Source: Gammaproteobacteria bacterium (GTDB taxonomy: Bacteria; Pseudomonadota; Gammaproteobacteria; Ga0077536). Taken from it: a stretch of 64,000 nucleotides of DNA. The stretch spans positions 186,001 through 250,000 of the forward strand of contig JAJFJQ010000051.1 in NCBI GenBank assembly GCA_021773835.1. Direction: 5' to 3'. Shown here in pieces: positions 1-16,819 of the stretch. Below the pieces are notes generated by a model. That model did not search any database and was not told where the DNA came from. It saw nothing but the letters and a program-made list of their open reading frames with translations. The position numbers and the translations under genes were made by a program. Each line of letters starts with the position of its first letter. Position 1 is the first letter of the stretch.

Positions 1-756
1 TCCAAGCATCATTCCAATGATGAAACTGCCGAGTGCCATCGATAGCCCCACGCTATGGGTCAACCAGGCGGCCAGCAAGGCGATGACAAGTGTTGTGAGT
101 AAAAAAACCTCATCGGAACGGGTGCCGGCGACCTCGTGATAGATCTTTGGCAACAGCCATTTGCCGATACTCATCAACACTGTGAGCAACAGGACTCCGC
201 GCAACAATGCGGAGCCCAGCTCAGCGGTAATGTTCGTACTTTCCTGTCCGGCGAAAACGGGGACAAGAATCAAAAAGACGATCGCTACCAAGTCCTGGAA
301 CAGTAGCACTGCGACTGCCAATTGCGCATATCGAGAATCGAGCTGCTGGGAAACGGCAAGTTCGCGGGTCACTACCGCTGTTGACGATAAGGCGAGCGCA
401 CCGGCAATAACAATTGCCGCTTCAATTGTCGTGCCCCATAGGTAGACAGCAAGCGCGAATATTCCAGTCGTAACGAATACTTGCGCACCGCCGAGACCGA
501 AAACCGGGCCTTTCAAGGTCAACATACGAGGTAAGGAAAATTCTAGGCCCAGCGAAAATAGCAAAAACACGACACCGAATTCCGCAATCAAGGCAAAACC
601 CTGTGGGTCGACCCAAGCTAGCAAATGCGGTCCGATGACAACCCCGGCGACCATATACGCGATGATGGATGGCAGGCGAACGCGCGAAAAAATTATCGCG
701 ACCACGAGCGCAGCGCTGAATATCGTCGTTAGATCTTCGAAAAACTCAAATTCCAC
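1..756 (-). CDS. Kef-type cation:proton antiporter, N-terminal part (truncated by window edge)
   Basis: Membrane antiporter of the CPA2 family (KefB/KefC/YbaL type), exchanging K+ or Na+ for protons across the inner membrane. The 252 visible codons form consecutive hydrophobic helices with family motifs: IIAYMVAGVVIGP near residue 30, LLFSLGLEFSL near 70, a STAVVTREL stretch, QDLVAIVFLIL, and GSFIIGMMLG at the very edge. Family members are usually 550-650 residues, often with a C-terminal RCK/TrkA domain, so more than half of the gene lies left of base 1. The GTG at 756 is chosen because AGGCGA lies about 8 bases upstream and no better start follows. It is divergent from the AhpD-like gene, whose ATG is at 760, leaving three bases between the two start codons. 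Confidence 0.85.
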   Translation of the reverse strand, partial: MEFEFFEDLTTIFSAALVVAIIFSRVRLPSIIAYMVAGVVIGPHLLAWVDPQGFALIAEFGVVFLLFSLGLEFSLPRMLTLKGPVFGLGGAQVFVTTGIFALAVYLWGTTIEAAIVIAGALALSSTAVVTRELAVSQQLDSRYAQLAVAVLLFQDLVAIVFLILVPVFAGQESTNITAELGSALLRGVLLLTVLMSIGKWLLPKIYHEVAGTRSDEVFLLTTLVIALLAAWLTHSVGLSMALGSFIIGMMLG

Positions 757-759
757 CAG

Positions 760-1251
760 ATGTCGCCTGTAGAGATACCAGATTCATGCGGGATTCCATG
801 GCTGTATTCTAAGGCAGCCCACAGCTTGTCGCACGGCAGGGTGCAATTTGAATTGGAAACGCGAGGCGCCGTGAATACGAAGATCACGGAACTCGCGTGT
901 CTGATGGTTGCGCAGAAAAATAACTGCCGCCTCTGAATGCAAGCTCGCCTTGCGGTCGCAAGGGAAGAAGGTCTGACCGAAGCAGAGATTGCAGAGATCC
1001 CGAATTACCAAACCAGCACGCTGCTGTCGCCACGCGAAAAAACCGCGATCCAGTTCGCTGAAGTACTGGCAGGCGATGTTAATTCGGCGTCCGATGCACT
1101 GTTTGATGAGTTACGAGTGCATTTTACCGAGCCGGAGATCGCCGATCTCGGTTGGCGCATCGTGAGCTTCGTTGGCTATGGCAGATTGGTTAAAGTGTTA
1201 GGTCTCGAGATTGGCCAGACCTGCCCGCTGCCGCACACGTCGGCCGGGTAA
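760..1251 (+). CDS. AhpD/carboxymuconolactone decarboxylase-like protein with in-frame TGA; candidate selenoprotein (CxxU)
   Basis: One continuous frame from ATG 760 to the stop at 1249-1251 (163 residues), interrupted only by TGA at 934-936. Both sides of the TGA read as one CMD/AhpD domain: ITELACLMVAQ before it, the motif NNCRL-(TGA)-MQAR, then AREEGLTEAEIAEI and a helical C-terminal half with YGRLVKVLGLE. In AhpD-like enzymes this place is the redox C-x-x-C at the start of the active helix, so the TGA falls where the second Cys (residue 59, partner Cys56) belongs. A hairpin with a GGUC loop begins 12 bases after the TGA, as a bacterial SECIS should. The expected role is a thiol-dependent peroxidase or redox protein. 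Alternatives: a recent nonsense mutation, an assembly error, or a separate shorter protein started at ATG 937. No good ribosome site precedes ATG 760. No sel genes are in the window. Confidence 0.6.
937..967 (+). promoter_or_regulatory. Candidate bacterial SECIS hairpin after the in-frame TGA
   Basis: The arms CCTTGC (948-953) and GCAAGG (958-963) are perfectly complementary and close a GGTC tetraloop at 954-957. A weaker lower stem (CTC 944-946 with GA-G 964-967, one bulge on each side) extends it. The loop starts 17 bases after the TGA. Bacterial SECIS elements sit directly downstream of the UGA inside the coding sequence with a small loop containing G; the E. coli fdhF element, as I recall it, presents the same GGUC loop about 18 bases after its UGA. 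The bulged U of the fdhF upper stem is not evident here. Function is inferred from position and shape only. Confidence 0.5.
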
Positions 1252-16198: not shown

Positions 16199-16819
16199 AT
16201 GGCCAGAGTAGCCATCATAAAACCGGAAAGTGTAGAGGACCCGGCGATCCGGGAAATTTTCGCATGGGTAACGGAAGTCGAGGGCGCAGTCCCTAATCAT
16301 TTTTACCTTGAGATGAATTTCCCCGAATTTCTCAAGGTAAAGCTTGGAGCGACCCAGGTGTTGTGGCAGATGGGCGAACTGTCGCTGCCAGAAATCCAAC
16401 ACATTGGGATCCTCGTCTCCCAGGCGAACGGTTGTCCGTATTGCACCGCTGCATTTTACACGATCCTGAACTATGGTTTGCAGACCGCTGAAGACTACGT
16501 GCAGGAATTGGTTACCAATGGCATTGCAACGGTGGAAGACGCGCGATTGAAAACTATCCTCGACTTTGCGCTAAAGGTAAATGTCGATGCCAAAGGTATC
16601 TCCGATGCAGATACCGACAGTCTGCGCCAGGTAGGATTATCGGATAAAGGGATCGTGCAGCTGGTCCACCTGGTCAGCGATTTTGCGGCGTACAACCGGC
16701 TGAACCTCGCGCTCGATACTGATTACGATTACCGCGACATGTGGCGTGCGTTCGCCTTCGATTGGATACAACAGCCGGGCGAGGCTGCGGGGGACAATTC
16801 CCGTGGTTTGAGGCAATAG
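16199..16819 (+). CDS. Carboxymuconolactone decarboxylase/AhpD-like protein
   Basis: 206-residue CMD-family protein. The redox pair is intact here: ANGCPYCTAAFY near residue 80 carries Cys-x2-Cys, unlike the paralogous gene at 760-1251 where the second position is TGA. Upstream is an N-terminal helical region (RVAIIKPESVEDPAIREIFAW); downstream helices end near residue 190. Such two-part proteins act as alkylhydroperoxidase-like or gamma-carboxymuconolactone decarboxylase-like enzymes; the CxxC favours a redox role. ATG 16199 follows a strong ribosome site (GAGGTGA, 6 bases). Divergent from the D-aminoacylase-type gene, with 135 bases between for regulation. Confidence 0.87.
   Translation: MARVAIIKPESVEDPAIREIFAWVTEVEGAVPNHFYLEMNFPEFLKVKLGATQVLWQMGELSLPEIQHIGILVSQANGCPYCTAAFYTILNYGLQTAEDYVQELVTNGIATVEDARLKTILDFALKVNVDAKGISDADTDSLRQVGLSDKGIVQLVHLVSDFAAYNRLNLALDTDYDYRDMWRAFAFDWIQQPGEAAGDNSRGLRQ

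Follow-up and report, generated by a model that had tools for sequence, protein, structure and literature searches.

The locus at 760-1251 of the window (the whole stretch of 64,000 nucleotides analysed here) is in all likelihood, as judged from sequence comparison, a member by descent of a CMD/AhpD-like C-x-x-Sec selenoprotein family, with its 5′ end cut in the source genome. The in-frame TGA at codon 59 very probably encodes selenocysteine in an AhpD/CMD-like C-x-x-Sec redox protein. This reading, together with a SECIS element, had been put forward in an earlier note on this DNA and is now strengthened by the four Sec genes of the genome, by the TGA in homologues and by covariation in the hairpin that follows it. 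The features discussed below are listed in Table 1.

Table 1. Features at and around the selenoprotein locus, in window coordinates
Feature	Position	Strand	Basis or remark
Start of a gene that we take to encode a cation/proton antiporter	1..756	-	Divergent from the selenoprotein remnant; runs off the window, 568-aa frame on the contig
Stretch without gene-family homology, from the antiporter start to the homologous part	757..849	+	Truncation, rearrangement or assembly join
CMD/AhpD-like region of the selenoprotein gene, conserved in relatives	850..1251	+	Residues 31-163 plus stop; identity to relatives, Pfam CMD
Codon 47, TGT (Cys)	898..900	+	Arg in 20/20 compared relatives
Cys56 codon of C-x-x-U	925..927	+	Cys in 21/22 relatives, Arg in L039
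In-frame TGA, codon 59, very probably a selenocysteine codon by descent	934..936	+	TGA in homologues; selA, selB, selC and selD
SECIS-like hairpin with a GGUC loop on a 6-bp stem, loop 17 nt from the TGA	948..963	+	Covariation; published bSECIS rules
Distant paralogue with C-P-Y-C	16199..16819	+	TIGR01926 is the best NCBIfam model, 67.5 bits, below the cut-off of 81.8

Translation of the frame agrees with the earlier note that the TGA is its sole interruption and that it replaces the second Cys of a C-x-x-C motif, here C56-R-L-U59. Pfam CMD (PF02627) matches residues 34-101 of the window protein with 39.2 bits against a cut-off of 23, and the CMD domain thus spans the TGA. The further claim of a single CMD domain running through both sides of the TGA stands from about base 850 onwards and falls for 760-849, since residues 1-30 align with no relative found. 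As had been foreseen for a conventional annotation, which would start at ATG 937, an open reading frame list made without Sec readthrough gives 937-1251 alone, the part 3′ of the TGA.

The source genome (6.1 Mb in 74 contigs) was searched for selA, selB, selC and selD, as the earlier note had proposed, and carries all four. The first three lie side by side at C47:431451-434939, on the same contig as the window, and the profile scores of selA (599 bits), selB (421) and selD (295) are each above the respective cut-off. The tRNA-Sec gene (selC), with anticodon tca, adjoins selA-selB; it came from other searches, an Rfam search of the selA locus having given no match. On contig C55, selD (L025, G000:C55:135839-136750) belongs to an 804-aa frame, the SelD half of which has CGGC and the front half of which, judged by eye, looks oxidoreductase-like; in both respects it resembles the CxxC-containing Ndh-SelD fusions reported in the accessible part of PMC2398784. 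A second match to the tRNA-Sec family was seen at G000:C26:124873-124958 (L018; 49.3 bits, gathering score 47), which may stem from a different long-arm tRNA.

Seven relatives (L002-L008, 64-68% identical) came from a scan of named genomes, six of them in records titled Candidatus Binatia or Binatota and one in a Desulfurellaceae record, and all seven have TGA at the codon. The search of 76 genomes, the source genome included, gave matches in 16 genomes (21 rows), and 20 of these rows, with that of the window, cover the codon: 16 have TGA, two have Cys (L031, L042) and two Tyr (L046, L047). Besides the window and the named genomes, TGA is found in 15 of 19 homologues covering the codon, the other four being the two with Cys and the two with Tyr. 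The homologue alignment suggested in the earlier note hence shows TGA in 22 of 26 homologues covering the codon with the window excluded, counted without L040, in which the codon is not covered, and without L064. The latter is a copy with the motif C-V-L-C in G338, which besides the source genome was the only one of 398 genomes of the phylum to match the L028 protein at E of at most 1e-20. Across 122-126 aligned codons, the window copy is 59-75% identical in amino acids to its 13 nearest relatives (L002-L008, L028-L033). The named-genome relatives are about as near to it as the copies from its own family. In the family tree, drawn without L039 and with three of the seven named-genome rows, 10 of the 20 inner branches are unresolved. 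A transfer between phyla would fit the sequences.

It is scarcely conceivable that a Cys gene has here merely acquired a nonsense mutation or been misread in sequencing: a single base change would turn TGC or TGT into TGA, but the TGA is common to the 22 homologues counted above, with a covarying hairpin and a full Sec machinery. The plain nonsense mutation was rejected because so many homologues have the TGA. All 20 genomes with a TGA copy (13 from the 76-genome search, the source genome included, and the seven named ones) have selA, and neither of the two genomes with a Cys copy (G012, G049) has it. However, the genomes are related and selA is common in the family in any case (30 of 35 members), so that the match between selA and TGA carries less weight than a count of 20 of 20 would imply, and the co-occurrence supports the link without proving it.

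The perfect 6-bp hairpin with a GGUC loop and a 17-base spacing, recorded in the earlier note, is present in every particular and is made up of CCTTGC (948-953), the loop GGTC (954-957) and GCAAGG (958-963). The bSECIS rules given in the accessible part of PMC13188914 ask for a loop of 3-9 nt, a stem of 4-16 bp, a G in the first two loop positions, a distance of 16-37 nt from the UGA and an MFE of at most -7.5. Scored against these, as had been proposed, the window hairpin fits with its 4-nt loop GGUC, 6 bp and 17 nt, the MFE being -11.1 kcal/mol when 33 nt are folded and -7.7 when the hairpin is folded by itself. A rule-fitting hairpin also lies 3′ of other TGA trinucleotides in the window (16 of 1835 on both strands, 934-936 counted), so the hairpin alone is a modest signal. 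It shows compensatory changes among the relatives, in which two subgroups (alignments A1 and A2) keep hairpins in different registers, with the loop 17 nt or 20 nt after the TGA. In the group of the window hairpin (6 sequences), 92.9% of the cells pair, a level reached in 2 of 500 shuffles, and two pairs are changed on both sides, making 4 cells. This cell count and the covariation score were each likewise matched by 2 of 500 shuffles; as many doubly changed pairs arose in 170 of 500 shuffles and as many pair types in 500 of 500, and neither of these counts rose above the shuffles. The other group (9 sequences) pairs in 93.7% of the cells and has four doubly changed pairs (1 of 500 shuffles) in 6 cells (0 of 500). 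When the partner was slid by 1 to 3 columns, pairing fell to 24-57% in both groups. The seven named-genome loci entered these alignments as one row, as did L035 and L037, which are identical there, and L041 was left out. In our view, the source family and Candidatus Binatota hold a well-supported subfamily of CMD-like CxxU selenoproteins whose SECIS covaries.

Homology to the relatives begins abruptly at residue 31 (base 850). A conserved N-terminal part lies before this shared point in all 20 intact near relatives (L002-L008, L028-L038, L043, L044), with an extra length of 53 residues in L028 and about 53 in the intact near relatives, and it is absent from the window copy, which is not a full-length gene with that region. 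The Pfam CMD match likewise starts from profile position 16 in the window copy, as against position 1 in the Binatia relative, leaving the first 15 positions unmatched. No Shine-Dalgarno-like site was seen at ATG 760, which is preceded by CTCAAATTCCACCAG; among relatives, by contrast, GGAGG lies ahead of the start in all 7 loci of one set, and of 13 homologue starts surveyed, L035 and L037 not being among them, 10 have GGAG or GAGG. On these three counts, the reading of 760-1251 as an intact gene in the earlier note is not supported.

When the N-termini of three relatives were searched against the six frames of bases 1-1400, ELETRG at 850 matched best (E 0.18) and the rest had E of at least 2.5. 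Across the whole window nothing was better than E 1.7, and elsewhere in the genome only the two distant tandem paralogues gave matches, both weak (E 0.02 and 0.37). The idea of an N-terminus lying upstream in another frame was rejected on these searches. The openness of the stretch 733-849 is not notable, as 34% of the 39-codon stretches in the window are open (all frames, coding ones included) and composition alone gives 15%. The AlphaFold2 model of the window protein, which rests on 4 sequences, has pLDDT below 50 over residues 1-35. That of the Binatia relative, also from 4 sequences, has helices at 14-27, 30-36 and 40-55 with pLDDT of 52-57 there, so that the role of the N-terminal helices is not firm.

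The antiporter is found in three other genomes, and the junction was compared at the DNA level with two of them, G001 and G045, G050 being left out. In G001, which is of the same genus, the match between the antiporter gene and the window ends at the start codon of that gene, and upstream of it lies an unrelated gene on the same strand, presumably for a CoxE-type protein; in G045 only short chance-level matches were obtained. The end of the match at the start codon in G001 points to a rearrangement or an assembly join within 757-850. The source copy would have lost about 53 conserved codons with the ribosome-binding site ahead of them, and the rest would have been joined to the upstream region of the antiporter gene.

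The window copy is 5′-truncated, and it may be recently dead, a shortened working protein or the product of an assembly join. The last of these, in which the junction near 757-850 would be an artefact of a 74-contig draft and the true gene would be whole, seems to us improbable. In its favour, all 20 intact near relatives have the N-terminus, and the number of contigs leaves room for it, but a true N-terminal copy is absent elsewhere in the assembly. Moreover, bases 700-880 occur once, the only other match being of 27 bases at E 0.97, so that there is no repeat at the junction to prompt a false join.

As to the state of the copy itself, we are evenly divided on whether it was recently truncated and is probably not working. 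The shared part evolved under purifying selection: compared with L028, dN is 0.21 and dS 1.63, the latter near saturation, and the differences at the three codon positions are 24, 14 and 52%. Between L028 and L030, dN is 0.10 and dS 1.17, the ratio for the window and L028 being a little higher. Among 29 columns invariant in 20 relatives (counted without L039 and L045), a single one is changed in the window copy, Arg47 to Cys, and the remaining frame runs for 133 codons with no stop besides the TGA, which argues against long-standing decay. Given the purifying selection and the few changes at invariant columns, decay is recent if there is any, or the short form works.

The second of these options is possible, and we hold it tentatively: the copy would be shortened but alive, another start giving a working Sec protein of about 126-163 residues, a small AhpD-like enzyme. 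Candidate starts are GTG 871, GTG 841, TTG 853 and ATG 760, and GTG 871 is preceded by GCGAGGCGCC, with a GAGG like that ahead of the start of L028, so that the in-frame GTG and TTG codons at 841, 853 and 871 and the GAGG before 871 make a shorter product possible. The frame is open, C-x-x-U and the hairpin are intact and dN is well below dS. At columns invariant in 13 near relatives the copy has 2 deviations, when those relatives, likewise tested, have 0-6, and in Foldseek the model still hits PA0269/AhpD of P. aeruginosa. However, the start region of the CMD profile is lost, 760 is without a ribosome-binding site, the change of Arg47 to Cys is unique and residues 1-35 are of low confidence in the model. 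Rather doubtful is the fuller view of a short, N-terminally remodelled selenoprotein that has kept the Sec codon and the SECIS, has lost the original start and the first helices and has gained a new start at or near the antiporter upstream region, in a CxxU subfamily shared between the source family and Candidatus Binatota.

Returning to recent truncation with probable loss of function, the decay of such genes does happen, as is seen in two relatives. L039 (G009) has lost its N-terminus and has Arg in place of Cys56 with the TGA kept, and L040 (G019) has in-frame TAA stops. The earlier note had named plainly decayed homologues as evidence that would speak against a selenoprotein; decay is found in these two and in none of the other relatives. 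The 38 selenoprotein loss events in sister genomes reported in the accessible part of PMC1794560 make selenoprotein loss an expected process. The window copy seems to show a selenoprotein gene being lost while its host retains the Sec machinery.

For the intact relatives, we propose that the UGA would be decoded as selenocysteine by SelB together with tRNA-Sec, aided by a hairpin loop 17-20 nt downstream. Within an all-helical AhpD-type fold, the Cys-Sec pair would then serve as a thiol-selenol redox centre for peroxide or disulphide reduction, and by analogy with their family the intact members are likely to be thiol-selenol peroxide or disulphide reductases. Both the Sec insertion at codon 59 and the redox chemistry are what we infer for this protein. 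The neighbours in the window gave no clue to a substrate: genes for an FAD-binding oxidoreductase and an MFS transporter lie on the other strand, and there is also an epimerase-like gene. The open reading frame listing of the gene surroundings of the relatives gave no lead.

AhpD-like selenoproteins have been reported in bacterial surveys, as the earlier note had stated, and this is borne out by the accessible parts of three sources: CMD-domain CxxU selenoproteins were described in 2005 from the Sargasso Sea with 4 sequences (PMC1088965), AhpD-like 2 (pfam02627, CxxU) was found in the Global Ocean Sampling data with 70 selenoproteins and 207 Cys homologues (PMC2398784), and a CMD domain-containing selenoprotein stands in the table of a 2026 review (PMC13188914). 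PF02627, CxxU and a SECIS after the TGA are all common to the window copy and the CMD-like CxxU selenoprotein as it appears in the accessible text of PMC1088965 and PMC13188914. The published example of that type is MBW1767730.1; the likeness is one of domain, motif and SECIS, and the window copy differs in being cut at its 5′ end. AhpD-like 2 is alike in domain and CxxU, compared by description only, from the accessible text of PMC2398784. The type has been known since 2005, and the window copy is a further member with its 5′ end missing. In the literature searched we found no paper on Binatota selenoproteins, and among the matches listed one Binatota paper has selenocysteine in its reference list only.

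The best NCBIfam match, NF053654 (GroundWater_YciW, YciW-related (seleno)protein), scored 52.8 bits for the window copy and 64.2 for L028, far below the curated cut-off of 310, and membership was not assigned. The nearest solved structures by sequence and fold are those of PA0269/AhpD of P. aeruginosa (2ijc, 2o4d, 7xw1), with 25-30% identity in the Foldseek matches, and their C-x-x-C aligns with the C-x-x-U of the window copy, Cys standing in place of Sec.

The paralogue at 16199-16819 scored 22.5 bits on PF02627, just below the cut-off of 23, and the Cys-x-x-Cys ascribed to it in the earlier note is there as C-P-Y-C. Also in the source genome, tandem CMD-like paralogues occur at G000:C71:623643-624614 (L045, L047, L061), one of which has C-F-T-U (TGA) and a hairpin with compensatory changes, its neighbour L047 having C-S-A-Y in the same place. 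An equivalent tandem pair (L041, L046) is carried by G003, a genome of the same genus.
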